Source: Bacteroidota bacterium
GTDB lineage: Bacteria > Bacteroidota > Bacteroidia > UKL13-3
NCBI GenBank assembly: GCA_030680835.1
Contig: JAUXUD010000056.1
Coordinates: 1-41,148 of the forward strand
Direction of reading: 5' to 3'
DNA length: 41,148 nucleotides
Position 1 is the stretch's first letter, and each line of letters starts with the position of its first letter. Below, piece by piece: positions 10,744-41,148 of the stretch. The position numbers and the translations under genes were made by a program. The notes under the pieces are model-generated. The model searched no databases and had not been told where the DNA came from. It was given only the letters and a program-made list of their open reading frames with translations.

Positions 10744-10805
10744 ACTTGAGGAAGCGTATTCCGAAAAAAAAATTATTTTAGCCCTTTAAATACAAAAGTA
10801 ATTTA

Positions 10806-12482: not shown

Positions 12483-12486
12483 AATT

Positions 12487-13383: not shown

Positions 13384-14026
13384 GTTTAGCTGTTTGTTTT
13401 TTGCCGGTTTGTTTTTTTATGCATGCAAAAATGAAACCGATAACAAATACCGTCAAAGCATTGCTGCCAGCCGCATGCAAATAAATGCTACTTTTTTTGA
13501 TCCCACACAAACCCCGCTCGACAGCATCACATTTTCACATTTTAAGGGCATCAAATTTTTTCCCATCAACGCGGCTTATAAAGTTAAAGCAAAGCTTGAA
13601 CCGATTAAGGATACAACAATTTTTGAATTGCTGCATTCGCATAATGCAAGCAAGCCTTACCGCAATTATGCACTGGCAACATTTGAACTAAACGGAAAAA
13701 CTTTTTCACTCAGAGTTCTGGAAGCCGCAATACATAAAGCAGGTTATGAAAATTATTTACTCATCCCCTTTATGGATGAAACCAATTCGGAAGAAACATA
13801 CGGTGGTGGAAGATATATAGATATAGAAAAACCCATATCCGGCGAATCGGATAAGCAACAGATTGAAATAGACTTTAACCTGGCCTATAATCCTTACTGT
13901 GCATATAACAACAGCTATACTTGTCCCATACCTCCAAAGGAAAATAACTTAGCAACCCGGATTGAAGCAGGAATGAAATACGATGCCCTGGAATTTGAAG
14001 AAATCCATCTCTCAGGCAAACACTAA
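13373..14026 (+). CDS. DUF1684 domain lipoprotein
   Basis: The 217-residue protein has a lipoprotein signal ending FFYAC (Cys18) and the DUF1684 core: LLIPFMDETNSEETYGGGRY (about 134-153), then LAYNPYCAYNNSYTCPIPP (about 174-192), with its paired cysteines. The function of DUF1684 is unknown. Its ATG lies inside the preceding Omp28-like gene, so the two are probably translationally coupled. The TAA stop overlaps the stop of the convergent barrel gene by three bases, leaving no terminator between them. Confidence 0.85.
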   Translation: MLNRFSCLFFAGLFFYACKNETDNKYRQSIAASRMQINATFFDPTQTPLDSITFSHFKGIKFFPINAAYKVKAKLEPIKDTTIFELLHSHNASKPYRNYALATFELNGKTFSLRVLEAAIHKAGYENYLLIPFMDETNSEETYGGGRYIDIEKPISGESDKQQIEIDFNLAYNPYCAYNNSYTCPIPPKENNLATRIEAGMKYDALEFEEIHLSGKH

Positions 14027-24200: not shown

Positions 24201-24673
24201 GTACCATTTGATTTCAACCCAAGACCATGATATGCTCCAGTGGCAATACTTATCCAGTTATTATCTGATCCAATTTGAGCAGGAGTGCTCCGGTCAGTAG
24301 TAGTTCCATCACCTAATTGTCCAAAAATATTCTGACCCCAGGCCCAAAGTGTTCCATCTGCTTTCAGACCAAGTGTAAAATATGCACCCGTAGAAATGGA
24401 TATCCATTTTGTATCTGTTCCAATTTGGACAGGACTATTCCTATGCGTGTTGGTACCATCGCCTAATTGCCCTGAAAAATTGGTTCCCCAGGCCCAAAGG
24501 CTACCTCCTCTAATTTCAAAGGTTTGTTGTGCGGCATGACCTGATGCAATTCTTTGGTAGTTTGCCCGGTAAGCAACAGATTTTTTGGTATTCGCCCGGT
24601 TTGTTTGGGCTAAGGTATTTACTGATAACAGTAATGTTATGGAAATTAAAATTGATATAGTTTTCATATTCAT
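21260..24673 (-). CDS. Secreted RCC1-repeat protein with Ig-like modules and T9SS sorting domain
   Basis: The 1137-residue protein begins with a signal peptide (about 1-22). Residues about 55-745 hold fourteen RCC1-type repeats of about 50 residues with the pattern LKSDGTLWAWG, then GQLGDGT, SPVQIGTD, KWVSI and HSLG. The last is degenerate. Fourteen equals two seven-blade propellers. Two Ig/PKD-like modules follow (about 760-990), then a 40-residue Cys/His module at 1002-1041 (CHVPSGNP, later HSGDHLGSC). A type IX secretion C-terminal domain runs from about 1062, with YPNPNSGLFTI and the final KGFYILKI and RKIVVQ. It is predicted to be exported across the outer membrane and anchored or released. 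The ligand is unknown. Start codons 24673 and 24667 are both ATG. Confidence 0.9.
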   Translation of the reverse strand: MNMKTISILISITLLLSVNTLAQTNRANTKKSVAYRANYQRIASGHAAQQTFEIRGGSLWAWGTNFSGQLGDGTNTHRNSPVQIGTDTKWISISTGAYFTLGLKADGTLWAWGQNIFGQLGDGTTTDRSTPAQIGSDNNWISIATGAYHGLGLKSNGTLWAWGWNRDGSIGDGTTTFRYSPIQIGTDNKWTVISAGYSHSHALKSDGTLWAWGNNNIGELGDGTTTQRNSPVQTGTDNKWVNVISGSEHVIGLKVDGTLWAWGFNDHGQIGDGTTINRTTPVQIGSNNTWVGFSGGGAHSLGLKSDGTLWAWGRNSRGSIGDGTNTHRSSPVQIGTDNKWVSVSGGSQHSIGLKSDGTLWSWGENSFGEVGDGTNTDRNSPVQTSITLSVWVSVKAGGTHSLGLKSDGTLWAWGFNLFYGQIGDGTTINRLSPVQIGTDNKWVSITAGGTQSLGLKSDGTLWAWGYNRHGTLGDGTAIDRHSPVRIGTDNKWVSITAGVVHSIGLKSDGTLWAWGNNALGQLGDGTITNRHSPVQIGTDTKWVSITASGYHSLGLKSDGTLWAWGLNNFGQLGDGTITNKTSPVQIGTDTKWVSISGGGPNPDGHTLGLKSDGTLWAWGLNNYGQLGDGTIIQKTSPLQIGTDNKWINISAGGYHSLGLKSDGTLWAWGLNGSGQLGDGTWVQKTSPVQIGTNTWVSITAGGYHSLGLKADRSLFCATGGNSFGHLGDGTTQNRHSFVCNTNPNCFMPPAPTGTNVAICYNNTASLSATGTGTLGWYSAATAGTYLGGGTSYITPSLTSNTTYYVQDSTCAASATRAAVLVTVNALPVANITPGGPTTFCQGGSVTLTASSGTSYLWSNNTTASTLVANTSGNYSVRVTDENGCSNTSVTITTSVNPLPSCSISVTPANTIYTGGDVNKIYLGYGSQSVTLTATSNGDAPFTYSWSGSYLSGNGATRIFTPLTEGSYNIICTTTNVNGCQNTCIVTICVLDIRSGGSGNSQKVYLCHVPSGNPSNTQTLDISVNVVPNHLSTHSGDHLGSCSQNCGMGKKASSFVELTHIEEIIIYPNPNSGLFTIDFNKMSGDKTIKVYDLSGKFIKELQSENKQVEINVEELAKGFYILKIYNEGKTYTRKIVVQ
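22470..24530 (-). repeat. Tandem ~150-bp repeats encoding RCC1 blades
   Basis: The RCC1 region repeats at DNA level with a unit of about 150 bases. On the plus strand the string CCCCATGCCCA, followed by a GTTCCGTCTGAT or GTACCGTCTGAT type segment, recurs unit after unit. Units towards the 3' end of the gene (roughly 22600-23450) are the most alike, while those near the 5' end are more diverged, consistent with recent local expansion by unequal crossover. Confidence 0.75.
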
Positions 24674-24835: not shown

Positions 24836-25309
24836 TTAACCCTCCACCTTTTTTATCAATTCCGTCACCTTATGCTCTAGCTCTTCATTGCGCTCCTTTA
24901 ACTCCTGAATATATGCTCTCAATTCATTTCGCTTTTCAAAGGCACTGATGGCTTCATCAATGATTGCTTTTAACTCGTTTTTATCCCAGGGTTTTGATAC
25001 ATATTTATAAACGTAACCGCTGTTGATGGCCTCTATAATTGCCTGCATATCGCTGAAGCCGGTGAGGATCATGCGGATGTTTTCGGGCACTTCGGGGATG
25101 CCTTTTAAAAACTGGATGCCGGTCATTTCGGGCATACGCTGATCGGTGATGATTACCGCAATTTCGTTTTCCTTCAGTACTTCAATTCCTTCGGAAGCGG
25201 AGTTGGCTGTAAAAATATGATAGTACTTTTTGAAAGCCGATTTAAATACCACCAGATTGTCTGCCTCATCATCCACATACAGGATATTGTATTTATCATT
25301 TGTTTTCAT
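24836..25309 (-). CDS. Stand-alone response regulator receiver with C-terminal coiled coil
   Basis: The 157-residue protein is a single receiver domain (about 7-122) and has no DNA-binding or enzymatic output. The phosphorylation machinery is intact: acidic pair Asp13/Asp14, phospho-acceptor Asp56 in ITDQRMP, Thr83 in LTGFSD and Lys106 in SKPW. Residues about 118-157 form a charged amphipathic helix (RNELRAYIQELKERNEELE) likely to be a coiled coil. Its receiver is close in sequence to the N-terminal receivers of the kinases upstream. It is the last gene of the array on this strand, separated from it by 187 bases with a strong inverted repeat. It could accept phosphate from those kinases, or pair with them through the coiled coil; this is inference. 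Confidence 0.9.
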   Translation of the reverse strand: MKTNDKYNILYVDDEADNLVVFKSAFKKYYHIFTANSASEGIEVLKENEIAVIITDQRMPEMTGIQFLKGIPEVPENIRMILTGFSDMQAIIEAINSGYVYKYVSKPWDKNELKAIIDEAISAFEKRNELRAYIQELKERNEELEHKVTELIKKVEG

Positions 25310-25387
25310 AATAGATTATTATTTTTAGTTTAAAGCCTGCTAATATTCGTTTAGATTACTTAATTAATATAAAACTCTCCTTCGTTT

Positions 25388-25438
25388 CTTTGTTTCTTTG
25401 TAGCAATCAGCATGTATTGAGGCTACAAAGAAACAAAG
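25388..25438. repeat. Perfect 17-bp inverted repeat between kinase array and receiver gene
   Basis: CTTTGTTTCTTTGTAGC at 25388-25404 is perfectly complementary to 25422-25438, with a 17-base loop. Outside the perfect stem the arms stay partly complementary (CCTT at 25379 against AAGG at 25444). On the transcribed strand the stem is followed only by TTTT, so a classic intrinsic terminator is doubtful. It could attenuate or process the long transcript before the receiver gene, or it could be a dispersed repeat. The rest of the 187-base spacer is AT-rich with no gene. Confidence 0.6.
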
Positions 25439-25496
25439 GAACTAAGGAAATTATTTCAATTTGGCAATGATTGACAAAATGAACCATTAACGATGA

Positions 25497-28031
25497 CTAT
25501 TTTCTTATCGGTAAGGAAATAATAAATTCTGTTCCTTTTCCCAATTCACTTTTTACTTCTATAGTTCCTTTGTGTTTTTCAATGATTCCGTAGGAAATGG
25601 ATAAACCCAATCCGGTTCCTTTACCTACCGCTTTTGTGGTAAAAAAGGGTTCAAATATTTTTGAACGTACTGTTTCATTCATTCCCGAACCATTGTCGGC
25701 AATGGATATGATTGCCTTCGACCCCTCTTCACTTGTTTTAATTGTAATTTCTCCCTTATCCGTTATGGCATCTGTAGCATTAAAAATAATATTCATAAAC
25801 ACCTGGTTTAACTGTCCGGGAAAACACATAAGCGGAGACAGTTTGCCATAATCCTTTATTACTTTTATCCGGTCTTTAATCCGGTTGTTTAAAATCACCA
25901 GGGTATTATCGATTCCTTCTTCCACATTGGCTATCTTCATATCATCTTCATCCAGACGTGTAAAATTTCGTAGGCCTTTTACAATTTCTGTTGTGCGGCT
26001 GGCGCCGCTTTTAATGCTTCCTATTAAATCCTCCATCTCGGGTAAAAGCACTTCTATGTTTAGCTCCCTGATGCTTTTATCTATCGCTGCCAATCGTGCT
26101 TCTGCATCTTTGATATTTTCCGATTGCTTGATCTGCATCAGTGCATTTTTTATTTCATCATAGTTATCATTTAAAGATTCAACTCCGGCAGAAATAAAAT
26201 TAACCGGATTGTTAATCTCATGTGCTACGCCTGCTGTTAATACCCCCAGCGATGCCATTTTTTCCGATTCTACCAGTTTGCTCTGTGCCGATTTTAACTG
26301 CTCAAATGCATCGGTCATTTTGCTGTAGGAACCTGCATTTTGTATGGCTGTGGTAATATATGAGGCAAGTGAACGTAAAATATCCAAATGGTATTGATTG
26401 TATGCATATTTACGAAAGCTCTGCACAGTAAGCACACCGGTGGGTTCATTATTAATGAGCAAAGGCATATATATCAGTGAAACCGGAACTTCAGGTTTGG
26501 TGCCATCTTCAAGCGAACTGTCATCGAGAATTACTTTCACATCACCCGTAATATATCGCTTGAATTCCTTCTCTACATCATTGATAAAAATTTCTTTTTT
26601 ATGCTCGATGCACCATACCGGAAACTGATTTTTATCTTCCATGGTTCGGGTATAAGGCTGATAGCGTTTTCCCTTTTCAATGGCAAGGCGGTAATCAATT
26701 ATTTTTTCTTCAGAATCGTAGATGCCGATTCCGAAAATGCTTGCATCCATCAAGCGGTTTACATTTTCATAAACCGTGTTTAATATCTTGTCGAGGTTTA
26801 ATGTAGATGTGATCTCCTGTCCGATTACGGTAAGCAATTTTAACTTACTGAAAGTTTCTTCCAGTTCATCTTTTTGGAGGCGGAGTTCCTCTGTTCGCTT
26901 TTCAACCTGCTGTTCCAGTTCCGTGTTCTTCTGCTCTATTTCAGTTTTGTGTTTTTCAATTAAATGATAGGCTTCCGAATTTTCAAGTGCGGTTGCCACA
27001 AAAATGGCTATATTCCTGAGTGCACTCAAATGATAGGATGTATAGGCATTTTTGTCATACGATTGTACGGTAATCAAACCAATCATTCGATCCTTTATCA
27101 TCAGGGGCATATAAATAAACGACAAGGGGTCGGAGGCCTGTGAGGAATCTTCAAGCATTCCCACTTCATCTTTATCTTTAAATTGGGAAATGTATTTTGA
27201 ATATTCCCTGTACACATCATTGATAAAAATTTCTTTTCGGTTTTCAACACACCAAACCGGAAACTGGTTTTTATCTTCCATACTTCTGCTGTATGGCTGA
27301 TAGCGTTTACCCTTTTCAATCGCTAACCGGTAATCAATCGTTTCCTTTTCGGCATTATAGGTACCAATCCCAAATACAGTAGCATCCATTAACTGGTTTA
27401 CATTTTCATAAACGGTATTTAAAATGGTTTCAATATCCAGGGTGGATGTTATTTCCTGTCCTATTTCACTCAGCAACTGCACATTTTTATAAGCCTCTTT
27501 TACCTGCTCATTCAATTGCAGTACCTCCCCCTTAAGTTTTATGTTTTCCGGTTTTTCATTGCTTTCATCCGTTGCTGCTGCTGCCTCGCCCGTACCTATT
27601 TTCCCATTATTTTCCGGTAAATGATTTTGTACATGTCCGTTCGCGCGCTTCAAAAACAATGACTGATATGCTTCATCTATGGTAAGTTTTAACTCTTCTT
27701 TTTGCCAGGGCTTTTTAATATATTTATGAATTTTACCAATATTTAATGCATCAATAACCGCTTCAATATCGCTGTATCCGGTCATGATGATGCGCACATT
27801 ATCGGGCTTGTCGGGAACAATTTTTAAAAACTCTACTCCGCTGAGTTCAGGCATGCGCTGATCTGAAATAATCACATCAACCGGATTGTCTTTTAAAAGT
27901 TGAAGTGCTTCAAAGCCTGAAATCGCAGTTATTACATCATAATACCTTCGGAATGATGATTTAAAAACCAACAGATTGTTATCTTCATCATCTACATAAA
28001 GTACTTTGGGTTTATTGTCTGAATTTTCCAT
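25497..28031 (-). CDS. Array kinase 1: REC-GAF-GAF-HisKA-HATPase, 844 aa
   Basis: Domain order is receiver (about 8-125, Asp57 in ISDQRMP, Thr84, Lys107), a linker helix, GAF1 (about 195-375), coiled coil ([19 protein letters not shown]), GAF2 (about 420-580), a HisKA dimerisation domain with His604 in [10 protein letters not shown], and a HATPase with N-box [16 protein letters not shown]1 DNGSGM and G2 GKGTGLGL. It has no membrane helix. The start is the ATG at 28031 ([10 protein letters not shown]), because the receivers of its paralogs start the same way. The frame runs on to a TTG at 28094 but that part overlaps the upstream gene. The gap to the upstream paralog is 10 bases. The variable GAF1 segment resembles GAF2 of array kinase 3, and its GAF2 segment resembles GAF2 of kinase 4. 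Confidence 0.92.
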
Positions 28032-28041
28032 TTTTACTGAT

Positions 28042-30558
28042 TTAAATTTGAACCGGTAAGGAAATTGTAAACACCGTACCCTTACCCATTTCACTTTTCA
28101 CTTCAATGGTACCTTTATGGTTTTCAATAATTCCATAAGAGATGGATAAGCCCAAACCCGTTCCTTTACCCACGGCTTTGGTTGTAAAAAAGGGTTCAAA
28201 AATATGCGCCCTTACATGCTCCGGCATCCCTGAACCCGAATCGCTAAAAGAAATATAAACAGTCTGTTCTTTCTGCCAGGTTTTAATATTTATTTCACCG
28301 GTTCCATCAATGGCATCCGCAGCATTTGAAAGAATATTCAGAAAAACCTGATTCAATTGTCCCGGATAACACATAATCTCAGGAATGTTTGCGTACGATT
28401 TATGCACTTCTATCCTGCCCTTTATCTTGTTGTTTAAAATAACCAGTGTGCTGTCAATGCCGGCTTCCAGACTCGCTTTTTTCATATCGCTTTCATCAAG
28501 TCGTGAAAAGTTTCGCAATCCTTTTACAATTTCTGATGTTCGCATGGCTCCGTTTTGAATGGTGCTGATTAGTATATCCATTTCTACCAGCAGGCTTTTT
28601 AAATCAATCTGCTTTTGAGTAGTGTTGATCCCCTCCCATAATTCAGCCGGAGGCGTATTTGGTTTTGGACTTTCAATCTGTTCAAGTAGTTTTTTCAGGT
28701 CTTCATAATTGTCCTTCAGCGATTCAATGCCTCCGGAAATAAAGTTTACAGGGTTATTTATTTCATGCGCCACACCTGCTGTTAACACCCCCAGAGATGC
28801 CATTTTTTCGGCTTCCACCAGTTTGCTCTGGGCTGCTTTTAACTGCTCAAAGGCTTCGGTCATTTTGCTGTAGGAATGCGCGTTTTGAATGGCTGTGGTA
28901 ATATATGATGCCAGTGATCTTAAAATATCCAGATGATACTGGTTATAGGCAAATTTTCGGAAACCCTGCACGGTAATTACACCAATGGGATTATTATTAA
29001 AGAGTAAGGGAATATAAATTAATGAAAGCGGAACCAATGATTGTGAGCCATCTTCCAGAGTACTTACCCGCTGATCAAAATCTTTGATATACTTTGAAAA
29101 TTCTACACTCACATCATTGATGAAAATTTCTTTTTTATTTTCAATACACCAAACCGGTAATTGGTTTTTGTCTTCCATAGTTCTGCTGTAGGGTTGAAAC
29201 CGTTTGCCATTCTCAATGGCCAGCTGGTAGTTAATGGTACTTTCTTCCGGCGAATAAATGCCGATTCCAAAAATACTCGCGTCCATGAGCTGGTTCACAT
29301 TTTCATAAACAGTATTTAAAATTTTATCCAGATTTAAGGTTGAGGTAATATCCTGTCCAATTTCAGTGAGCAGTTTCAGCTTTCTGAAAGTTCCTTCCAG
29401 TTCATCCTTTTGCAAACGCAGTTCCTGGGTACGCTTCTCAACCTTATCTTCAAGCTCAACATTCTTTTGTTCAATTTCTGTTTTTTGTTTTTCGATCAGA
29501 TGAAAAGCTTTATAATTTTCAAGCGCAGTTGCCACAAATATGGCAATGTTTCTTAATGCGCTTAAATGATACGGCGTGAATGCATTTTTATTGAATGACT
29601 GCACCGAAATCAACCCGATGACCCGGTCTTTAATCATCAAAGGCATATATATATACGATTCAGCAATCTCTGAATACGTGCCATCTTCCAGGGTACTTGA
29701 GATCTCATTAAAATCTTTGATGTATTTGGAATATTCAATACCCACATTGTTGATGAAAACCTCTTCCTTATTTTCTATACACCATACCGGAAACTGGTTT
29801 TTATCTTCCATGGTCCGGCTGTATGGCTGATAGCGTTTCCCTTTTTCTATGGCCAGTCTGTAATCAATCGTTTCCATTTCGGTATTATAGGTGCCAATTC
29901 CAAAAACACTTGCATCCATTAATTGGTTTACATTTTCATAAACCGTATTTAAAATGGTTTCAATATCTAAAGTAGAAGTAATTTCCTGCCCGATTTCACT
30001 CAGCAATTGTACATTTTGATACGCTTCATTTACCTGTTCTTTCAATCTCACATTTTCTTCTTTCAGAAATCGTATTTCTGCACTTTCATCCGATGATTGA
30101 AACGCAATATTTCCTGATTTCACAGCGTGCGGTATATTTTCTGAATGATGCACCTGCTCTTCCTTTTCACTTCTTTTTAAATACAGGCTCTGACAGGCTT
30201 CATCAATGATGCGTTTCAAATCTTCTTTTTGCCAGGGCTTCTTGATATACTTGTCAATTTTCCCTAAATTCAATGCATCAATTACAGCTTCTATATCACT
30301 GTACCCGGTCATAATCATGCGAACATTTTCAGGAGCATCCGGAATTTTTCTCAAAAACTCAACGCCACTCAAAACGGGCATCCGCTGATCGGATATCACC
30401 ACATCAACCTGGTTTTCTTCCAGTAACTGTAGAGCCTCTGCACCCGATAAGGCAGTGAGTACATCATAGTAGCGGCGAAATGCTGATTTGAAAACAAAGA
30501 GATTGTTTTCTTCATCATCAACATAAAGTACTCTGGGTGTATTATTTACTGTTTGCAT
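28042..30558 (-). CDS. Array kinase 2: REC-GAF-GAF-HisKA-HATPase, 838 aa
   Basis: A complete paralog with receiver Asp57 (VVISDQRMP), the KKPW lysine, two GAF domains, HisKA His598 and an intact HATPase ([14 protein letters not shown]). Its linker between receiver and GAF1 is its own ([14 protein letters not shown], then [16 protein letters not shown]), while the GAF and kinase parts are very close to those of the neighbours. The loop between the HisKA helices ([16 protein letters not shown]) groups it with kinases 5 and 6. The GAF2 variable segment ([18 protein letters not shown]) is close to that of kinase 5 GAF2. The start ATG is three bases after the stop of kinase 3, so translation is probably coupled. 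Confidence 0.92.
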
Positions 30559-30561
30559 GTT

Positions 30562-33057
30562 TTAAACATTTTTAAGGGGTAAGGTTATAATAAATTCTGT
30601 TCCTTTTCCAACTTCACTTGTTACTTCAAATGTGCCTTTGTGTTTTTCTATAATTCCGTAGGAAATAGAAAGACCCAAACCGGTTCCTTTACCCACATCT
30701 TTGGTGGTAAAAAAAGGTTCAAATATTTTTGACCTAACCGACTCAGGCATTCCGCTTCCGTTATCACGAATGGAAACTTTTATTGCCTTATTCTCTTCCC
30801 ATGTTTTCACTCTTATTTCTCCTTTATTGGCAATCGCATCGGCGGCATTGTAAAGCACATTCATAAATACCTGGTTTAACTGACCCGGAAAACACATGAG
30901 CTCAGGTGTGTTCCCATATTCTTTCACAACGTTTACTTTATTTTTGAAACGGTTATTCAAAATAATGATGGTATTGTCAAGACCCTCTTCCAGTTTTGCC
31001 CTTTTCATATCTGTTTCATCCAGGCGCGAGAAGTTTCGTAATCCCTTAACAATTTCTGTGGTGCGCTTGGCTCCGTTTCGTATGCTTATAAACAAATCGT
31101 TTACTTCCGGCAGCAGTTTATCCAGCGCCAATTCCTTGCGTTGTTTTTCAATCTGATCCCATAATTCTTTCGATTGTTTTTGATGATATGTCAGCAAGTC
31201 TTTTAACAGGAGTTCGATATCATCATAATTTTCCTTAAGCGATTGAATGCCCCCTGAAATAAAATTCACCGGATTGTTAATTTCATGCGCAACGCCTGCT
31301 GTTAATACACCCAGCGAAGCCATCTTTTCCGATTCCACGAGTTTACTTTGAGCCGATTTGAGTTGTTCAAATGCTTCGGTCATTTTGCTGTATGAATTTG
31401 CATTCTGGATGGCGGTTGTAATGTATGATGCCAATGATCTTAAAATATCCAGATGATATTGATTGTAGGCATGCTTTCTAAAACTCTGAACGGTTAAAAT
31501 GCCGATAGGATTGTTGTTAAAAAGCAACGGAATATATATGAAGGATAAAGGGTCTGCAGCCTGTGTGGCGTCTTCAAGCATTCCCACATCATCCTTGTCT
31601 TTAAACTGACTGATATAACGTGAATATTCCTTATACACATCATTAATAAATATTTCCTTTTTCTTTTCGATGCACCAAACCGGAAATTGATTTTTATCTT
31701 CCATACTCCGGGTATAAGGCTGATAGCGTTTCCCGTTTTCAATGGCCAGGCGGTAATCAATGGCATTTTCATCAGGCCGGTAAATTCCAATTCCAAAAAC
31801 ACTGGCATCCATCAAACTGTTTACATTTTCATAGATGGTATTTAATATGGTATCCAGATGCAGGGTAGAGGTTATTTCCTTTCCGATTTCTGTGAGCAGT
31901 TTTAATTTACCAAAAGTGTCTTCCAGTTCATCTTTCTGCAACCTGAGTTCTTCGGTTCGTTGTTCAACCTTTTGTTCCAGTTCAATATTCTTCTGTTCAA
32001 TTTCCGTTTTTTGTTCTTCTATGAGTGTATAAGCTTTTGCATTTTCCAATGCTGTGGCAACGAATATTCCAATGTTTCTCAGTGCATTGAGATGAAACTG
32101 GGTATATGCATTTTTGTTGAATGACTGCACGGTGGTAAGTCCGATAATTCTTCCTTTAATCAATAAGGGCATATAAATAAAAGATACCGGATCGGCGAAC
32201 TTGGTACCATCTTCCAGCATCGCTATCTCATCCTTGTCTTTATACTGGTTGATATAACGTGAATATTCTTCATACACATCATTGATAAATATTTCCTTTT
32301 TGTTTTCAATGCACCAAACCGGAAACTGATTTTTATCTTCCATGGTTCTGCTATATGGCTTATACCTGAGTCCTTTTTCGATGGCCAACTGATAGTCAAT
32401 CGTATTGTCAACCGAATTATAAATACCAATTCCAAACACGGTGGCATCCATTAAACGGTTTACATTTTCATATACGGTATTGAGGATGGCATCCAGGTTC
32501 AGGGTTGAAGTTACCTCCTGCCCGATTTCACTTAATAGCTGCACATTTTCATAGGCTTCATTTACCTGTTTTTGCAGGTTCTCTACATCCGGTTTTTCAT
32601 TTTTAGTTTTACCTTCAGCCTTTTTTTTCTGGATGTTTTTTATGGCTCCTGCTTCCTGCTGAACGAGTAATTTTCTGATTTGCAAATTCTCAATGGCATC
32701 ATCAATAATTTTCAGCAATTCCTCTTTCTCCCAGGGTTTGCTGATGTATTTGTATACCTTACCTGAATTCAATGCATCCACAACGGCTTCAATATCGCTG
32801 AAGCCTGTCAGTATCATGCGTACATTTTCACCTTTATCCGGGAGCGCACTTAAGAATTCTACCCCGCTGATTTCGGGCATGCGTTGATCCGAAATAATCA
32901 CATCAAAGAGATTGTCCTTCATCAGTTCTTTTGCCTCTTTTGCCGAAATGGATGTGGACACATCATAATACCTGCGAAAAGAGGAACGGAACACGAGTAA
33001 ATTTTCCTCTTCATCATCTACATAAAGTACTTTGGGTTTATTACTTGAAACTTCCAT
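30562..33057 (-). CDS. Array kinase 3: REC-GAF-GAF-HisKA-HATPase, 831 aa
   Basis: The shortest complete member. The receiver has Asp57 and ends in YISKPW, like kinase 4 and the stand-alone receiver, rather than the YIKKPW of kinases 1, 2, 5 and 6. The linker is lysine-rich ([17 protein letters not shown]). HisKA His591 and HATPase motifs ([19 protein letters not shown]) are intact. Both GAF domains carry the same type of variable segment ([17 protein letters not shown] in GAF1, [17 protein letters not shown] in GAF2), the clearest sign that the two GAFs of one gene can be copies of each other. The kinase 2 gene follows after three bases. Confidence 0.92.
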
Positions 33058-33067
33058 ATTTTGTTAA

Positions 33068-35614
33068 TTACATCTGGGTGGGTAATATTATTATGAATTC
33101 GGTGCCTTTTCCGGGCTCGCTGCTAACATGTATCGTACCTTTATGTTTTTCAATAATTCCATACGAAATAGACAATCCCAAACCAGTGCCTTTGCCAACA
33201 GCTTTAGTAGTAAAGAAGGGTTCAAATATATGTGCCCTGACATCATCCGGCATACCGCTTCCATTATCTCTGATGGTGATAAATACCTTTTCATTTTCTA
33301 CACGGGTCTGAACCGTAATTTCACCTTCATTTTCAATGGCATCACAGGCATTACTCAGTATATTCATAAATACCTGATTTAACTGTCCCGGATAACATTC
33401 TATTTCAGGAATCTTACCATATTCTTTTATTAATTCAATCCGGTTTTTAAATTTATTATTTAAAATAACCAGTGTATTGTTTAAGCCCTCCTCCAGATTG
33501 GCTTTTTTCATATCATTCTCATCCAGGCGTGAAAAGTTTCGCAAACCTTTAACAATTTCAGAAGTCCGGTTGGCTCCGTTCTTTACACTCTGAAATAAAT
33601 CCTTCATTTCAGAAAGGATTCTGTCCAAATCAATTTCCGTTTTTATTTTTTCAATTTTTTCCCATTGTGCTTTTGCTTCTTCAATATTTTCAACATTTTT
33701 AATTTCCTTTAGCAGATTCTCAATATCTGTATAGTTATCTTCCAGGGATTCAATTCCACCCGAAATAAAGGTTACCGGATTATTAATTTCATGTGCCACA
33801 CCTGCTGTTAATACCCCCAATGAAGCCATCTTTTCTGATTCAACCAGTTTGCTTTGTGCTGATTTAAGTTGCTCAAATGCTTCCGTCATTTTACTGTATG
33901 AACCTGCATTTTGAATGGCCGTTGTTATATAAGAGGCCAGGGACCTTAAGATATCCAGATGATACTGGTTATATGCATGCTTGCGGAAACTTTGTACGGT
34001 AAGTACACCCGTTGGTTTATTATTAAAAAGCAATGGAATATATATCAATGAAAGTGGTGCTTCTGCTTTAGACCCATCCTCTAAAGTTTCAGAACCCAAA
34101 ATAACTTTAACATTTTCTTTAAGATAATTCTGCGCATCTTTTTTTACATCATTAATAAAAACTTCCTTTTTGTTCTCAATACACCAAACCGGAAACTGGT
34201 TTTTATCTTCCATGCTTCTTGTATATGGTTGATACCGCTTTCCTTTTTCAATCGCAAGGCGATATTCTATAAGCTCTTTATCTGAATTATATATTCCAAT
34301 TCCAAATACACTGGCATCCATAAGATTATTAACATTTTCATAAACTGTATTTAATATGGTATCCAAATGAAGTGTTGAAGTAATTTCCTGTCCAATTTCT
34401 GTGAGCAATTTTAGCTTACTAAAGGTATCTTCCAGTTCATCTTTTTGCTGGCGGAGTTCCTCGGTACGCTGCTGCACTTTTTGTTCCAGTTCTACATTTT
34501 TTTGTTCTATTTCCGTTTTATGCTCTTCAATTAATTTATAGGCTTTTGCATTCTCAAGGGCAGTAGCAACATAAATTGCAATGTTTCTTAAATTGTTCAA
34601 GTGATAGTTAGAATAAGCACTTTTATTAAATGATTGAACCGTTATCAATCCAATTACATTTTCTTTAACCAAAAGGGGCATGTAAATAATGGAATACGGA
34701 ATATCCGATTTCGAACCGTCTTCCATTGTGGCATGTTCAGCATTAATCTTAACGGTTTCCTTTATATAAATTTGTGATTCCTTTTCTACATCGTTAATAA
34801 AAATCTCTTTCTTATTTTCAACACACCAAACCGGAAATTGATTTTTATCTTCCATACTCCGGCTATATGGCTTAAATCGTTTCCCCTTTTCAATGGCCAG
34901 ATGATAATCTATTGTTTGACCTTCTGCATTATACGTTCCAATACCAAATACACTTGCATCCATTAAATGATTAACATTCTCATAAACGGTATTTAAAATA
35001 TCATCCAGATTCAGGGTTGATGTAATTTCCTGTCCGATCTCACTTAACAACTGCACGTTTTTATAAGCATCATCAACTTGTTTCTGAAGTGCAATATTCT
35101 CTGCTTCTTTTTGTTTTAATTGCTCAATAATTTCTTTATCACTGATGTTTTGATAAGAAATATTTTCAACCCGGCTGCGCTCCTGTTCTTTTGTTGGGGA
35201 TTTATGATTCAACATTTCCAGTCTGCCCTGTTTTTCCTTATAATTTATAAGCGCATCATCAATAATTTGCTGCAACTCATCTTTCTTCCAGGGCTTTGAA
35301 ATATACTTGTCAATCCTGCCATTATTCAATGCCTTTATTACAATATCCACATCGCTGTAACCGGTTAAAATCATTCTTAAACTCCGCGTTTCATCGGGCA
35401 GATTATTCAGAAATTCCACACCATTCACTTTGGGCATTCTTTGATCCGAGATGATTACATCAAACTCCCGGTCTCTTAAAATGTCCATTGCCGTATAGGC
35501 AGAATTGGCCGTTTCAACATCATAAAATCTTCGCATCGATGAGGAAAAAACAAGTAAATTATCCTCTTCGTCATCTACATAAAGTACCTTTGGTTTTGCG
35601 CTTGCTATTTGCAT
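33068..35614 (-). CDS. Array kinase 4: REC-GAF-GAF-HisKA-HATPase, 848 aa
   Basis: The longest member, and the one whose receiver differs most (FSSSMRRFYDVETANSA, against [10 protein letters not shown] in others), but with Asp57 kept. The extra length is in the receiver-GAF1 linker (HKSPTKEQERSRVENISYQN, then a helix). HisKA His608 is followed by NNPVTFISGG, where all other members have NNPVNFIS. The GAF1 variable segment is unique (KESQIYIKETVKINAEHATM). The GAF2 segment (ENVKVILGSETLEDGS) resembles that of kinase 1 GAF2. The HATPase is complete ([14 protein letters not shown]). The stop lies 10 bases upstream of the kinase 3 ATG. Confidence 0.92.
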   Translation of the reverse strand: MQIASAKPKVLYVDDEEDNLLVFSSSMRRFYDVETANSAYTAMDILRDREFDVIISDQRMPKVNGVEFLNNLPDETRSLRMILTGYSDVDIVIKALNNGRIDKYISKPWKKDELQQIIDDALINYKEKQGRLEMLNHKSPTKEQERSRVENISYQNISDKEIIEQLKQKEAENIALQKQVDDAYKNVQLLSEIGQEITSTLNLDDILNTVYENVNHLMDASVFGIGTYNAEGQTIDYHLAIEKGKRFKPYSRSMEDKNQFPVWCVENKKEIFINDVEKESQIYIKETVKINAEHATMEDGSKSDIPYSIIYMPLLVKENVIGLITVQSFNKSAYSNYHLNNLRNIAIYVATALENAKAYKLIEEHKTEIEQKNVELEQKVQQRTEELRQQKDELEDTFSKLKLLTEIGQEITSTLHLDTILNTVYENVNNLMDASVFGIGIYNSDKELIEYRLAIEKGKRYQPYTRSMEDKNQFPVWCIENKKEVFINDVKKDAQNYLKENVKVILGSETLEDGSKAEAPLSLIYIPLLFNNKPTGVLTVQSFRKHAYNQYHLDILRSLASYITTAIQNAGSYSKMTEAFEQLKSAQSKLVESEKMASLGVLTAGVAHEINNPVTFISGGIESLEDNYTDIENLLKEIKNVENIEEAKAQWEKIEKIKTEIDLDRILSEMKDLFQSVKNGANRTSEIVKGLRNFSRLDENDMKKANLEEGLNNTLVILNNKFKNRIELIKEYGKIPEIECYPGQLNQVFMNILSNACDAIENEGEITVQTRVENEKVFITIRDNGSGMPDDVRAHIFEPFFTTKAVGKGTGLGLSISYGIIEKHKGTIHVSSEPGKGTEFIIILPTQM

Positions 35615-35617
35615 GAT

Positions 35618-38140
35618 CTAATAACTTTTAATCGGTAATATGATTATAAATTCAGTGCCTTTACCGGGTTCACTTTTTACTTCTATGGATCCCTTGTGCT
35701 TTTTAATAATTCCATACGAAATGGATAAGCCCAATCCGGTACCTTTACCCACCTGTTTTGTGGTGAAGAAGGGTTCAAAAATATGCGCGCTAATATTTTC
35801 CGGCATTCCTGAACCTGTGTCCCTGAAGGAAATATACACTGCATTTTCATGTTGCCAGGTCTTGATATGAATTTCACCTTTTGCTTCAATCGCATCGGCA
35901 GCATTGGATAAAATATTCAAAAAAACCTGATTCAACTGTCCGGGATAACACATAATCTGAGGAATTCCTTCATACGCTTTCATTACCTTGATCCGGCTCT
36001 TGATTTTATTATTCAGAATTACCAGGGTGCTGTCAATTCCTTCTTCGATGCTTGCCTTCTTCATTTCGTCTTCATCGAGTCTCGAAAAGTTACGCAGGCC
36101 TTTTACAATTTCCGAGGTTCTCAATGCACCATTTTCTATGGTATTGATCAATATTTCCATTTCGGGTAACAAACTTTTTAAATCAATTTCCTTTTTAAAT
36201 ATATCAATGCCCTTCCATGTTTCTTCTATTGATTTTCCGGGCTCAGGGTTTTCTATCATTTCCAGAAGCTTTTTCAGTTCCGCATAATTATCTTTCAACG
36301 ACTCAATGCCTCCCGAAATAAAGTTTACCGGATTATTGATTTCATGCGCTACGCCGGCTGTTAATACCCCCAGAGAAGCCATTTTTTCTGACTCTACCAA
36401 TTTACTTTGTGCCGATTTTAATTGCTCAAAAGCTTCTGTCATTTTGCTGTACGAATTTGCATTGAGAATGGCAGTAGTAATATAAGATGCCAGTGACCTT
36501 AAAATGTCGAGATGGTATTGATTATAGGCAAACTTGCGAAAACCCTGAACCGTTATTACCCCGATTGTTTTGTTATTAAAAAGTAATGGAATATAAATCA
36601 ATGAAAGCGGAACCAGCGACTGGGTGCCGTCTTCGAGGGTACTTACAATTTCCTCAAAACTTTTTATATATCTGCCGTATTCCTTATACACATCATTTAT
36701 AAAAATTTCCTTCTTGTTCTCAATACACCATACCGGAAACTGGTTCTTGTCTTCCATGGAACGGGTATACGGCTGATATCTTTTGCCGTTCTCAATAGCC
36801 AGTTTATAATTAATGGTATTTTCTTCGGGCGAATAAATTCCGATTCCAAAAACACTTGCATCCATAATGCGGTTTACATTTTCATAAACGGTGTTCAGTA
36901 TTTTATCAAGATTTAAAGTGGAGGTAATCTCTTGTCCAATTTCAGTGAGAAGTTTCAGTTTACTAAATGTTTCTTCCAGTTCATCTTTTTGCAAACGCAA
37001 TTCCTGGGTTCGCTTTTCAACCTTGTCTTCCAGGTCTGAATTCTTTTGTTCAATTTCGGCTTTTTGTTTCTCGATTAAATGATATGCCTTTGCGTTTTCA
37101 ATTGCCGTTGCCACATAGATGGCTATGTTTCTGAAACTGTTTAAATGGTAATGACTATACGCATTTTTGATAAATGACTGAACGGTAATAAGTCCTATTA
37201 CCTTGTCTTTAATCAGAAGCGGCATGTATATAAACGACAGGGGAACTTCTGAAGTACTGCCATCCTCAAGCTCTACAATTTTGTGTTCATATTTACTGAT
37301 ATATTTGCTGTATTCTTCAAGTATGTCATTGATAAAAACTTCTTTTTTATTTTCGATACACCATACCGGAAACTGATTTTTATCTTCCATCGTACGGCTG
37401 TATGGCTGGTACCTTTTTCCTTTCTCTATGGCCAGCTGATAATCTATGGTAGAATTCTCGGCATTATAAACACCGATTCCGAATACACTGGCATCCATCA
37501 GTTGGTTCACATTCTCATATACGGTATTTAATATGGTATCCAAATCCAGCGTGGAAGTGATCTCCTGTCCGATCTCGCTGAGCAGCTGTACATTTTTATA
37601 GGCTTCATTCACCTGTTCATTCAGGCGAAGTACCTCTTCTTTGAGTTTTACAATTTCAATTTTTTCATCCGTCTTTGGCTTTGCAGCAGTCAAATCGTTG
37701 CCCTGATTGCTTATATTGTTTTGCAATGGAATCGAATGATCCTGCTTTTCATTTCTTTTCAGGCAAAGCTTTTGGTAAGCCTCGTCAATGGTGAGTTTCA
37801 GCTCTTCCTTGAGCCAGGGTTTTTTGATATATTTATAAATTTTCTCAATATTAAATGCTTCAATTACGGTTTCAACATCACTGTATCCGGTCAAAATCAT
37901 TCTGATATTATCCGGTTCATCCGGAATGTTTTTTAAAAATTCAACCCCGCTTACATCCGGCATGCGCTGATCGGAGATAACCACATCTACCGGATTGTCC
38001 TTTAATAATTGAAAAGCATCATGTGCCGATATGGCCGTGAGCACATCGAAATATCTGCGGAATGCAGACTTGAAAACAAAAAGATTATTCTCTTCATCAT
38101 CCACATATAATACTCTGGGTTTGCCGTTTATTGCTTGCAT
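35618..38140 (-). CDS. Array kinase 5: REC-GAF-GAF-HisKA-HATPase, 840 aa
   Basis: The receiver has Asp57 ([13 protein letters not shown]) and YIKKPW. HisKA His599 and the HATPase ([19 protein letters not shown]) are intact. The GAF1 variable segment (SKYISKYEHKIVELEDGS) matches GAF2 of kinase 6, the adjacent upstream gene. Its GAF2 segment (GRYIKSFEEIVSTLEDGT) matches GAF2 of kinase 2. The GAF2-preceding helix ([20 protein letters not shown]) is the same as in kinase 1. The next gene starts three bases after its stop. It is separated from kinase 6 by the only longer gap in the array (65 bases). Confidence 0.92.
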   Translation of the reverse strand: MQAINGKPRVLYVDDEENNLFVFKSAFRRYFDVLTAISAHDAFQLLKDNPVDVVISDQRMPDVSGVEFLKNIPDEPDNIRMILTGYSDVETVIEAFNIEKIYKYIKKPWLKEELKLTIDEAYQKLCLKRNEKQDHSIPLQNNISNQGNDLTAAKPKTDEKIEIVKLKEEVLRLNEQVNEAYKNVQLLSEIGQEITSTLDLDTILNTVYENVNQLMDASVFGIGVYNAENSTIDYQLAIEKGKRYQPYSRTMEDKNQFPVWCIENKKEVFINDILEEYSKYISKYEHKIVELEDGSTSEVPLSFIYMPLLIKDKVIGLITVQSFIKNAYSHYHLNSFRNIAIYVATAIENAKAYHLIEKQKAEIEQKNSDLEDKVEKRTQELRLQKDELEETFSKLKLLTEIGQEITSTLNLDKILNTVYENVNRIMDASVFGIGIYSPEENTINYKLAIENGKRYQPYTRSMEDKNQFPVWCIENKKEIFINDVYKEYGRYIKSFEEIVSTLEDGTQSLVPLSLIYIPLLFNNKTIGVITVQGFRKFAYNQYHLDILRSLASYITTAILNANSYSKMTEAFEQLKSAQSKLVESEKMASLGVLTAGVAHEINNPVNFISGGIESLKDNYAELKKLLEMIENPEPGKSIEETWKGIDIFKKEIDLKSLLPEMEILINTIENGALRTSEIVKGLRNFSRLDEDEMKKASIEEGIDSTLVILNNKIKSRIKVMKAYEGIPQIMCYPGQLNQVFLNILSNAADAIEAKGEIHIKTWQHENAVYISFRDTGSGMPENISAHIFEPFFTTKQVGKGTGLGLSISYGIIKKHKGSIEVKSEPGKGTEFIIILPIKSY

Positions 38141-38205
38141 AATTTAAACTTTAACTAATTGAATAAAAATCTCAAATTTTAAATCCCATCCCGATAGCTC
38201 CATTT
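38141..38205. other. Longer intergenic gap inside the kinase array
   Basis: All other gaps between array kinases are 3 or 10 bases; this one is 65. On the minus strand it contains TTAAAATTTG about 30 bases before the kinase 5 ATG, which is near the TAnnTTTG box but not exact. It could hold an internal promoter or mark an independent duplication junction. No hairpin is evident. Confidence 0.25.
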
Positions 38206-40713
38206 TTACTGCATAGGTAATGTGATTATAAATTCAGTGCCTTTACCCACTTCACTTTTAACTTCTATATTTCCCTTATGGTTTTCGATAATTCCGTATG
38301 AAATGGAAAGTCCGAGGCCGGTTCCTTTTCCTACCGCTTTGGTGGTAAAAAAGGGTTCAAAAATATGTGACCTTATTTCCTCAGGCATCCCCGAACCTGT
38401 ATCACTAAAATGAATAATTATTTGATCGTCTTTTTGTAATGTTTTTATTCGAATGATTCCTTCACCATCAATTGCATCTGCCGCATTCGATAATATATTC
38501 ATAAAAACCTGATTCAACTGGCCGGGGTAACAAATAATTTCAGGAATTCCGGAAAACTCTTTCTCGAGGGTTATCTTTCCTTTTATCTTGTTATTTAATA
38601 TAACCAGGGTGCTGTTGATTCCTTCTTCCAGATTTGCTTTTTTCATATCGCTTTCATCAAGCCTTGAAAAATTTCGCAAACCCTTTACAATTTCAGAAGT
38701 CCTCAAAGCCCCGTTTCGGATGGTGTTGATGAGTACTTCCATTTCCGGTAAAAGACTTTTCAATTCGATTTCTTTTCTTACGGAATCAATTATTTCCCAC
38801 AATTCTGCAGGCGTATGTTTTGAATCATGCACTTCGATAAATTCAAGCAGTTTTTTCAGGTCTTCATAATTTTCCCTGAGCGATTCGATACCTCCTGAAA
38901 TAAAATTAACCGGGTTGTTGATCTCATGTGCCACCCCTGCAGTGAGTACCCCCAGTGAGGCCATTTTTTCAGCGTCCACCAATTTGCTCTGAGCCGACTT
39001 TAACTGCTCAAAGGCTTCAGTCATCTTGCTGTATGAACTTGCATTCTGGATCGCCGTTGTAATATATGATGCCAGCGACCTTAATATATCCAGATGGTAT
39101 TGGTTGTATGCAAATTTACGGAAACTCTGTACTGTTAAAATACCAATGGGTTCATTGTTGAATAATAAGGGCATATAAATCATCGAGTGCGGACTGGATG
39201 ATTGGGTTCCATCTTCGAGTACTGCTATTTTGTGTTCATATTTTTTTATATAACGGGCATATTCTTTTTCAACTTCATTGATAAATATTTCGACTTTATT
39301 CTCAATGCACGAAACCGGGAATTGATTTTTATCTTCCATGGAACGGGTATAAGGCTGATACCTTTTACCATTCTCAATAGCCAGTTTATAGTTGATGGTA
39401 TTTTCACCGGAAGAATAAATACCGATCCCGAAAACACTTGCGTCCATCAAACTGTTCACATTTTCGTAAACCGTATTTAAAATGGTATCCAGATTCAGGG
39501 TTGATGTAATTTCCTGTCCGATTTCAGTCAGTAATTTTAGCTTGCTAAACGTACTCTCCAGTTCATCTTTCTGCAAACGCAATTCCAGGGTTCTTTTTTC
39601 AACCTCCTGTTCCAGATCAATATTTTTATGTTCGATTTCTGTTTTTTGTTTTTCGATTAAATGAAAGGCTTTCGAATTTTCAAGCGCGGTCGCAACAAAA
39701 ATGGCAATATTTCTCAGGGCGCTTAAATGGTAAGGCGTATACGCATTTTTTTCATAGGATTGTACCGTAATCAAACCAATAATTCTGTTTTTTACCATCA
39801 TCGGCATATAGATTAATGAGTGCTGAAATTCAGGCATTGAACCATCTTCAAGTCTGGCACTTTCTATATTTAAGTTGGCAAAACTTTTTATGTATTTGCT
39901 GTACTCAATTTCAACATTATTGATAAACACTTCTTTTTTATTCTCAATACACCATACCGGGAATTGGTCTTTATCCTCCATGGTTCTACTATAGGGCTGG
40001 TATCTTTTCCCCTTATCAAAAGCCAGTTTATAATCAATGGATGAATCTTCAATATTATATACCCCAATGCCGAAAACGCTTGCATCCATCAACTGATTCA
40101 CGTTTTCATAAACGGTATTTAAAATCGTTTCCAGATCAAGTGTTGATGTTATTTCCTGTCCGATTTCACTCAGTAACTGCACATTTTTATAGGAGTCATT
40201 TACCTGTTGTTTTAACAGTTCAATTTCTTCATCTTTTGTCCGGATGATTGAATACAAGTCTGCTTCCGCCTGATCCTTTGGTTCAGAGCTAAGGTGTATT
40301 GGCGCTTCGGTTTTTACGGTTTCGTTTCGCCTGCTGCCTAATTTGATGAGGGCTTCATCCAACACCTGTTTGAGCTCATCTTTTACCCAGGGTTTTTTAA
40401 TATACTTTTGAATTTTACCGGTGTTTAATGCTTCAATTACGGTTTCGATATCACTGTATCCGGTCATGATCATGCGAACACTGTCAGGTATATCCGGCAA
40501 CGATGTTAAAAACTCAACACCACTGGTATGCGGCATCCGCTGATCGGATATAATCATATCAACCGGATTATCCCTTAACAATGCAATTCCGTCTTTGGCA
40601 GAAGAAACCGTATAAATATCGTAATGCCTCCTGAACGAAGATTTAAAAACATGCAAATTGTCTTCTTCATCATCTACGTATAAAATTTTGGGTTTGGCGT
40701 CAATGCTCTGCAT
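38206..40713 (-). CDS. Array kinase 6: REC-GAF-GAF-HisKA-HATPase, 835 aa
   Basis: The receiver (Asp57, [13 protein letters not shown]) is followed by an acidic linker (SSEPKDQAEADLYSIIRTKD), GAF1, GAF2, HisKA His596 and HATPase ([14 protein letters not shown]). GAF2 is the odd one among the twelve complete GAF domains: the otherwise constant [11 protein letters not shown] reads FPVSCIENKVE, and the following FINDV reads FINEV. This suggests relaxed or changed ligand binding in that domain. The GAF1 variable segment (KYIKSFANLNIESARLEDG) is longer than in the others. The start ATG lies three bases after the stop of the partial upstream gene. Confidence 0.92.
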   Translation of the reverse strand: MQSIDAKPKILYVDDEEDNLHVFKSSFRRHYDIYTVSSAKDGIALLRDNPVDMIISDQRMPHTSGVEFLTSLPDIPDSVRMIMTGYSDIETVIEALNTGKIQKYIKKPWVKDELKQVLDEALIKLGSRRNETVKTEAPIHLSSEPKDQAEADLYSIIRTKDEEIELLKQQVNDSYKNVQLLSEIGQEITSTLDLETILNTVYENVNQLMDASVFGIGVYNIEDSSIDYKLAFDKGKRYQPYSRTMEDKDQFPVWCIENKKEVFINNVEIEYSKYIKSFANLNIESARLEDGSMPEFQHSLIYMPMMVKNRIIGLITVQSYEKNAYTPYHLSALRNIAIFVATALENSKAFHLIEKQKTEIEHKNIDLEQEVEKRTLELRLQKDELESTFSKLKLLTEIGQEITSTLNLDTILNTVYENVNSLMDASVFGIGIYSSGENTINYKLAIENGKRYQPYTRSMEDKNQFPVSCIENKVEIFINEVEKEYARYIKKYEHKIAVLEDGTQSSSPHSMIYMPLLFNNEPIGILTVQSFRKFAYNQYHLDILRSLASYITTAIQNASSYSKMTEAFEQLKSAQSKLVDAEKMASLGVLTAGVAHEINNPVNFISGGIESLRENYEDLKKLLEFIEVHDSKHTPAELWEIIDSVRKEIELKSLLPEMEVLINTIRNGALRTSEIVKGLRNFSRLDESDMKKANLEEGINSTLVILNNKIKGKITLEKEFSGIPEIICYPGQLNQVFMNILSNAADAIDGEGIIRIKTLQKDDQIIIHFSDTGSGMPEEIRSHIFEPFFTTKAVGKGTGLGLSISYGIIENHKGNIEVKSEVGKGTEFIITLPMQ

Positions 40714-40716
40714 AAT

Positions 40717-41148
40717 TTATGAATAATGTATGGGTAATGAAATGATAAACTCTGTTCCTGTTCCGGGTTCACTTTTTACCGTAATGGTTCCATTGTGGGT
40801 ATTAATAATTCCAAAAGATATCGACATGCCCAATCCGGTTCCTTTCCCGACAGGCTTGGTGGTAAAAAATGGTTCAAAAATATGGGCGCGTACTTCTTCA
40901 GGCATTCCTTTACCGGTATCTCTGAAAGAGATACAAACTGACTGATCCTGCTGCCAGGTTTTAATATATATTTCGCCCTCTCCTTCAATGGCATCTGCGG
41001 CATTTGCCAGTATATTCATAAAAACCTGATTCAACTGTCCCGGATAACATAAAATCTCAGGAAGATTTCCGTAATTCTTTATTATTTCAACCCGGTTCTT
41101 AACCTGATTGCCTAATATGACCAGGGTTGAATCAATCCCTTCTTCCAG
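40717..41148 (-). CDS. Array kinase 7, C-terminal part only (HATPase), cut by window edge
   Basis: The frame is open from the right edge to the TAA-type stop at 40717, giving 143 residues. These cover the last part of a HisKA linker ([20 protein letters not shown]), the N-box ([21 protein letters not shown]), G1 (DTGKGM) and G2 (GKGTGLGMSISFG). The ends of the paralogs align with it over the whole length. It is the most diverged HATPase in the array: GLGM replaces GLGL, INTHNGT replaces IEKHKGT, and DTGKGM replaces D-GSGM. Its receiver and GAF domains, if present, lie outside the window. Confidence 0.88.
   Translation of the reverse strand: MEEGIDSTLVILGNQVKNRVEIIKNYGNLPEILCYPGQLNQVFMNILANAADAIEGEGEIYIKTWQQDQSVCISFRDTGKGMPEEVRAHIFEPFFTTKPVGKGTGLGMSISFGIINTHNGTITVKSEPGTGTEFIISLPIHYS

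Follow-up and report, generated by a model that had tools for sequence, protein, structure and literature searches.

Organization of the kinase array

The window analysed here is the whole 41,148-nucleotide contig JAUXUD010000056.1 of a Bacteroidota bacterium (GCA_030680835.1), one of the 104 contigs of a 4.3 Mb genome with a completeness of 99.84%. Between 25497 and 41148 its minus strand carries six complete genes (K1 to K6) and one partial gene (K7) for histidine kinases with an N-terminal receiver (REC) and paired GAF domains, followed by the gene of a lone receiver (RR). A sequence-only reading had described this region as a head-to-tail array of at least seven kinases plus a lone receiver, perhaps larger because it runs off the right edge of the window, and both points were borne out. 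The last 141 bases of the window exactly match the end of a second contig, C29, which continues the K7 reading frame and then encodes an eighth kinase, K8, and a 386-residue receiver-cyclase (REC-cyclase). Extending the array rightwards and counting its members thus gives eight complete kinases headed by the REC-cyclase. The genes are as follows (aa, amino acids).

24836..25309, minus strand: lone receiver (RR), 157 aa; highest identity to REC-cyclase receivers
25310..25496, minus strand: K1-RR gap, 187 bases; long inverted repeat with a strong fold, z -5.48
25497..28031, minus strand: K1, REC-GAF-GAF-HisKA-HATPase, 844 aa; start at ATG 28031
28042..30558, minus strand: K2, REC-GAF-GAF-HisKA-HATPase, 838 aa
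30562..33057, minus strand: K3, REC-GAF-GAF-HisKA-HATPase, 831 aa; kinase core closest to the single kinase of genome G342
33068..35614, minus strand: K4, REC-GAF-GAF-HisKA-HATPase, 848 aa
35618..38140, minus strand: K5, REC-GAF-GAF-HisKA-HATPase, 840 aa
38206..40713, minus strand: K6, REC-GAF-GAF-HisKA-HATPase, 835 aa
40717..41148, minus strand: K7, 3' part; the remainder is on contig C29
Contig C29 (locus L029): rest of K7 at 12905-15124, K8 at 10369-12870, REC-cyclase at 9202-10362

For K1, the ATG at 28031 was preferred over a longer GTG frame. The order of transcription is REC-cyclase, K8, K7, K6, K5, K4, K3, K2, K1, RR, with successive gaps of 6, 34, 3, 65, 3, 10, 3, 10 and 187 bases. 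The earlier remark that gaps of 3 or 10 bases separate most of the kinases therefore stands for K7-K6 to K2-K1 (3, 65, 3, 10, 3 and 10 bases). The REC-cyclase and K8 to K1 may be co-transcribed as one operon. Promoter-like sites (78, against 58.6 with a standard deviation, sd, of 8.0 in shuffles) and terminator-like sites (15, against 13.0, sd 3.6) were not used as evidence, as the scan may not recognize the kind of promoter that this organism uses. A TPR-histidine kinase-receiver hybrid (L029 5631-7829) lies upstream of the REC-cyclase, separated from it by a single gene of opposite orientation.

The join between the window and C29 is very likely correct, though not proved. Among the matches listed, only C29 and the window itself carry the 141-base sequence at full identity, the others being 70-75% identical, and the overlap is not a repeat internal to the array, since the longest exact match between any two kinases is 39 bases. 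One could nevertheless suppose that the array is an assembly artefact, with a lower real copy number or wrong neighbours, as the assembly is a draft and a contig end splits one kinase. We regard this as very improbable given the short exact matches between copies and the restricted occurrence of the overlap, and also because each contig holds complete kinases, six in the first and one in the second, with K7 alone being split. Duplication by the assembler was ruled out, as any two copies share at most 74.3% of nucleotides and at most 39 consecutive exact bases.

Divergence and conservation of the kinases

The shared domain order noticed earlier was recovered in all six complete window kinases as Pfam Response_reg, two GAF stretches, HisKA and HATPase_c, with HisKA and HATPase_c above the curated Pfam cut-offs in K1-K6. 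That Asp57, the kinase His and the ATP-binding boxes are intact in the six complete genes proved true of all eight kinases: each retains the receiver Asp, which is D57 on the K2 translation, together with the H, N, G1, F and G2 boxes.

The copies had also been called near-identical, and this did not hold. Amino acid identity is 64-77% within K1-K7 and 53-56% between K8 and the others, and nucleotide identity over all kinase pairs is 60.5-74.3%. At synonymous sites, the domains of K1-K7 each show a mean difference of 0.68-0.80 per site, a saturated level that rules out recent duplication. Saturated synonymous sites, low nonsynonymous change and intact motifs together indicate that the kinase copies are old and that each has been individually maintained.

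A hypervariable lid inside a tract of discordant history

Nonsynonymous difference per site (pN) within K1-K7 is distributed unevenly. It is 0.08-0.14 in the GAF scaffolds, against 0.19 in the catalytic and ATP-binding (CA) domain and 0.20 in the receiver; the coil between the GAF domains stands at 0.12, and the coil before the dimerization and histidine phosphotransfer (DHp) domain at 0.05, lower than the scaffolds. The lid loop after GAF helix 4 reaches 0.38-0.39, the highest value except for the REC-GAF linker (0.55). Non-modal residues make up 0.39 of alignment columns 93-123 and 0.11 elsewhere, and none of 20000 column shuffles reached the best window. This hypervariable loop of about 30 residues lies inside a discordant tract of about 50 residues (approximately columns 67-120), which begins in conserved sequence and extends into the variable loop. 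Examples of the tract are the following.

29662..29814, minus strand: lid tract of K2 GAF1 (alignment columns 67-120)
29029..29181, minus strand: lid tract of K2 GAF2
27126..27284, minus strand: lid tract of K1 GAF1; variable part closest to K3 GAF2
31549..31707, minus strand: lid tract of K3 GAF2
34697..34858, minus strand: lid tract of K4 GAF1; variable part closest to K4 GAF2
34055..34216, minus strand: lid tract of K4 GAF2

By amino acids, the nearest neighbour of a GAF domain lies in the other GAF position for 9/14 lids and for 0/14 of either the N or the C flank. By nucleotides, windows within columns 71-120 give 10-12/14 neighbours in the other position, earlier windows give 0-4/14, columns 101-130 give 6/14, and windows from column 111 on give 0/14. 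The tree test carries more weight than the amino acid count of 9/14, because about half of the neighbours would be expected in the other position without any positional signal. Forcing GAF1 and GAF2 domains apart in the lid costs 36.8 log units with nucleotides (approximately unbiased, AU, test, p = 0.0025) and 28.5 with amino acids (p = 0.021), while in the N and C parts the constrained tree does as well as the unconstrained one. The lid result persists with ungapped columns (p = 0.0006 for nucleotides, 0.0037 for amino acids), with codon positions 1+2 (p = 0.006) and with position 3 alone (p = 0.007). Among eleven 31-column windows, three reject the GAF1/GAF2 split (67-97, 73-103 and 93-123; p = 0.005, 0.0009 and 0.0025) and eight do not.

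The lid tract thus appears to have a history different from that of both flanks, as expected if it was exchanged among the 14 GAF domains of K1-K7; because silent positions carry the same signal, the data point to exchange of DNA rather than to convergence alone. Exchange of the N and C flanks was not seen in the amino acid neighbours or the AU tests. In the lid tree, which is without support values, the lids of K2, K4 and K7 pair within their own gene. The combination of constrained GAF scaffolds with a hypervariable lid inside a tract of discordant history is, on this evidence, what appears to be new here.

The sequence-only reading had also proposed that each member senses a different ligand. 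The hypervariable lid and the apparent movement of its tract among GAF positions favour this, but the scaffolds change little; that they changed less than the catalytic and receiver domains argues against a wholesale change of ligand class.

Predicted structure of the GAF domains

The AlphaFold2 model of K2 GAF1 has a mean predicted local distance difference test score of 88.0 and a predicted template modelling score of 0.84, and structure comparison with Foldseek and VIA-align 2 confirmed a GAF fold. The lid tract corresponds to model residues 74-124 (approximately), between strands 71-74 and 126-134, and holds helices 81-88 and 97-103. The best PDB match of the GAF profile is the cAMP-bound GAF domain of Leptospira Lcd1 (5W10; cAMP, cyclic AMP) with an E value of 4.9e-9, and Lcd1 also takes Foldseek ranks 1-4. 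In VIA-align 2, 5W10 scored Z 17.7 (root-mean-square deviation, rmsd, 2.7; 162 aligned residues), clearly below 3trc (Z 20.9, rmsd 2.3, 161 residues) and 3ci6 (Z 20.2, rmsd 2.1, 151 residues). The ligand pocket of Lcd1 is described as being kept closed by helices 3 and 5 and strands 2 and 3 (PMC11800159). We infer that helix 81-88 corresponds to helix 3 of Lcd1 and that the lid would cover the GAF ligand pocket. That cAMP is itself the GAF ligand is a guess.

A receiver-adenylyl cyclase as the candidate output

Only 6 bases separate the end of the REC-cyclase gene from K8, and the product of this gene contains Response_reg and Guanylate_cyc domains (PF00211, E = 2.4e-60). Aligned to adenylyl cyclase 9, it has both metal Asp residues at the C1-domain places and Lys, Asp, Asn and Arg at the C2-domain places, residues that we take to have metal- and substrate-binding roles. 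They fit a homodimeric class III adenylyl cyclase, the product of which would be cAMP.

Relatives were sought in draws of 395 genomes each from the class and from the phylum, both sampled from larger groups; two candidates per genome were scored in the kinase searches of both draws and four in the class REC-cyclase search. Full-length relatives of the REC-cyclase (E <=1e-92, 48-70% identical) occur in 5/395 class genomes, the array's own genome included, and a kinase gene is near the REC-cyclase at all five loci. It is adjacent in the array's own genome, in G342 (30 bases apart) and in G345 (a GAF-kinase five bases away); in G183 and G081 the gene order is kinase (of a different type), lone receiver, REC-cyclase, so that the kinase is one receiver gene away. 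A sixth locus, from Ignavibacteria (L032), has a kinase adjacent to the REC-cyclase at a distance of 389 bases and a cNMP-binding (cyclic nucleotide-binding) protein gene after it. The array's own genome holds 16 REC-cyclase matches, seven of them in the cyclase domain (two of these frames have an internal stop), and six cNMP-binding matches.

Because a kinase lies beside the REC-cyclase or one receiver gene away from it in all five class loci and in the Ignavibacteria locus, the REC-cyclase is probably the shared output of the array kinases. The idea that the repertoire acts on a shared partner is therefore supported in part: the best candidate is the REC-cyclase upstream of K8 and not, as had been suggested, the receiver at 24836.

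Predicted partner specificity

Positions +7, +11, +12, +14 and +15 from the His in DHp helix 1, which we take to determine partner specificity, read N(T)-G/A-G-E(Q,G)-S in K1-K8. The same pattern fits the kinases of G342 and G345 but not those of contig C22 (see below), G407 and the Ignavibacteria locus. Receiver helix 1 is likewise similar in the array kinases, the REC-cyclase and RR. Since the predicted interface positions are near-constant, cross-phosphorylation within the array is predicted.

The lone receiver and the K1-RR gap

RR is 57-58% identical to the receiver plus coil of the REC-cyclase over about 155 residues. Against the receivers of four REC-cyclases its identity is 59-65%, and against nine receivers from the array and G342 kinases it is 48-58%. 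RR therefore resembles a copy of the REC-cyclase's receiver and coil that lacks the cyclase domain. Its placement in a receiver tree is weak (support 34), and we would like to note that the relationship was judged by identities and not by that tree. No cyclase remnant was found behind RR, the best match of a cyclase-domain query in the window having an E value of 0.55.

The 187-base gap between K1 and RR (25310-25496) folds with a z-score of -5.48, a value reached by 0/200 shuffles, and contains an inverted repeat with 17-base exact arms around CTTTGTTTCTTTGTAGC. The arm was found in 4/117 fetched loci, each of which covers the K1-RR spot itself. The repeat may be a terminator or a palindromic element, and because this long gap with a strong hairpin precedes it, RR may not be co-transcribed with the array. 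Just downstream of RR, 21260-24673 encodes a protein of 1137 residues that combines RCC1 repeats with an Ig-like domain and a tail for secretion sorting (Por_Secre_tail).

Occurrence in other genomes and origin

A sample of the order (64 genomes, the same count as the family, own genome included) gave a kinase match at E <=1e-95 only in the array's own genome, and a search of 60 relatives at 1e-60 gave no full-length match in any other genome. Six of the 395 class genomes match the kinase at 1e-95, own included; four of these match only partially. The remaining genome, G342, belongs to another family and has a full-length REC-GAF-GAF-kinase of 60% identity as a single copy beside its cyclase. 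No second copy was found in G342, where two partial matches at 1e-40 were seen, one being the receiver of its cyclase, and 15 other genomes of its family gave no match. Three of the 395 phylum genomes match, own included, the other two partially. A scan of a contig collection returned 12 loci, the closest being the Ignavibacteria TPR-GAF-kinase (TPR read by eye) followed by a REC-cyclase.

No second tandem array was seen in the order, class and phylum samples or in the contig-collection scan, and no description of a tandem array of this kind was found in the open-access literature searched. The suggestion that the array is unusual thus survives the search of the sampled class and phylum genomes for tandem REC-GAF-GAF-HisKA genes, although the domain order itself is not unique to this genome, given the single full-length copy in G342.

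In the kinase-core tree the G342 kinase falls among K1-K8, beside K3 (support 84), with weak deep nodes (20-55); its GAF1, unlike its kinase core, pairs with K8 GAF1 (support 100). Either the array would predate the split from the lineage of G342, or genes would have moved between lineages and recombined. Because the array is absent from 63 family members and its synonymous divergence is saturated, we suggest that it, or much of it, derives from an unsampled lineage or was lost in others. GC (guanine plus cytosine) content is 37.4% in the array and 39.2% in 1-24673 of the window, which is no clear sign of foreign origin. The gene next to the array, by eye an acetyltransferase, was used to look for the insertion site; it is at most 41% identical within the genus, and no empty site was found there.

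Some related loci deserve mention. Contig C22 (L030 8628-11921) carries a kinase whose core is related to that of the array kinases, with a receiver-kinase after it, and 9/18 genomes of the same genus have one core match each comparable to the C22 kinase. Consecutive GAF runs of this type occur in the Bacteroidota loci L037 (9647-13009), L036, L038, L039, L086 and L087, in which the matched stretch is without a kinase core. In L031 (5607-8971) a kinase gene adjoins a receiver fused to another domain, which, from its translation, presumably resembles thioredoxin reductase.

Proposed mechanism and alternatives

We consider it moderately probable that the locus is a many-input, one-output two-component cAMP system whose repertoire of GAF lids was diversified by exchange. 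Eight soluble histidine kinases would sense intracellular ligands through their paired GAF domains and then autophosphorylate. They would phosphorylate each other's N-terminal receivers as well as the receiver in the REC-cyclase, so that the cAMP output would sum the kinase inputs; RR, if expressed, would act as a phosphate sink or competitor. The scaffolds would be held near constant, while the lid tract would be exchanged between GAF1 and GAF2 positions, both within and between genes. A more specific version, in which lid cassettes were moved by gene conversion among the 14 GAF domains, mixed specificities are summed by one cyclase and cAMP possibly feeds back, is offered only tentatively.

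Several observations weigh against this mechanism. The lid tests use 28-31 aligned residues from 14 domains of one genome, and the lid was first picked by eye, so the p values are somewhat optimistic, although the smallest survives a factor of eleven. Some N-flank windows (up to column 90) give 1-4/14 other-position neighbours by nucleotides, and within-gene matching of lids as a general rule was rejected as not significant (379/5040 pairings for columns 87-122, 433/5040 for the core). A loose pattern for NKFDE, which we take to be the cyclic-nucleotide GAF motif of the PDE/CyaB2 type, was found in 2/16 GAF domains only and was absent from the other 14. A weaker REC-cyclase relative from the same genus (G014, 40%) has no kinase match in the 14 kb fetched, and the placement of the cyclase at the head of the array depends on the single 141-base overlap. 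Lastly, the kinase beside the Ignavibacteria REC-cyclase differs from the array kinases at 3/5 of these specificity positions, hence the DHp pattern is not required beside a REC-cyclase.

This last point also favours a reading in which the kinases are insulated hybrids, each using its own N-terminal receiver in cis, for autoregulation or a short relay, as parallel separate sensors to which the cyclase neighbourhood is incidental. The receiver is intact in every kinase, and its divergence (pN 0.20) is close to that of the CA domain (0.19). However, a predicted interface that is nearly the same in all eight kinases predicts cross-talk, and the kinase-cyclase neighbourhood recurs across genomes, so we think insulation unlikely. 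We find it less likely still that the array is a redundant amplification, in which the tandem copies raise the dose of a single kinase and have diverged by drift. Unequal crossing-over fits the head-to-tail order, and every copy keeps its GAF scaffolds and catalytic boxes, but the saturated synonymous difference with low nonsynonymous change means that the copies are old and each retained, and GAF change concentrates in one lid segment (0/20000 column shuffles).

The rival that bears most directly on the lid attributes its pattern to convergence or relaxed constraint without exchange, likeness between lids arising by chance or through a common ligand. Surface loops of this kind are often variable, the segment is short, and lid variation could reflect relaxed constraint on such a loop; additionally, 9/14 other-position neighbours is about what no positional signal would give, as 7/13 candidates lie there. 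Against this, the GAF1/GAF2 split is rejected even when third codon positions are used alone, and the rejection extends to the conserved columns 67-97 ahead of the loop. We regard this rival as doubtful, though it is the most serious of the alternatives.

The many-input system with exchanged lids would bear on how many sensors can use a common two-component output and still avoid harmful cross-talk, and on how sensor domains acquire new ligands. The array offers eight paralogues with a near-constant predicted interface and scaffold, one variable lid and a single enzymatic output with an easily measured product. If the more specific version, with gene conversion, is right, the operon would be a self-diversifying sensor repertoire, in which lids on fixed scaffolds give different or mixed ligand specificities.

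Comparison with known systems

CyaC combines receivers and a kinase in one protein, and its activation reportedly proceeds by autophosphorylation and phosphotransfer, going by the title of a 1999 paper cited in PMC1183210. For Anabaena, AphC-CyaC is a precedent, described as "purportedly" so, for the control of a cyclase by a kinase (PMC4284465). By analogy, we propose control of the cyclase by receiver phosphorylation for the array as well, and the arrangement of a receiver fused to a cyclase with a kinase encoded nearby was found at all five class loci and at L032. Unlike CyaC/AphC, the array has a simple REC-cyclase and eight separate GAF-GAF kinases in one gene run. It shares the same type of output protein near a kinase with the loci of G342, G345, G183, G081 and L032, which have one kinase where the array has eight; the G342 kinase aligns with the array kinases over its whole length, whereas those of G183 and G081 match in the core only, at about 30%. 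Lcd1, although the best PDB match of the array GAF profile, is 19-20% identical, and the comparison with it covered overall similarity.

In myxobacteria, multi-gene two-component foci and lineage-specific duplications are described, duplication being a relatively small source of difference even though certain families are hugely expanded (PMC4603909). The parts of that account that bear on such foci do not describe a long tandem run of one kinase family like the present one (PMC4603909). In comparison with these systems, the array belongs to a familiar type of two-component cAMP module but has an unusual set of eight kinases and a hypervariable lid whose history is discordant.

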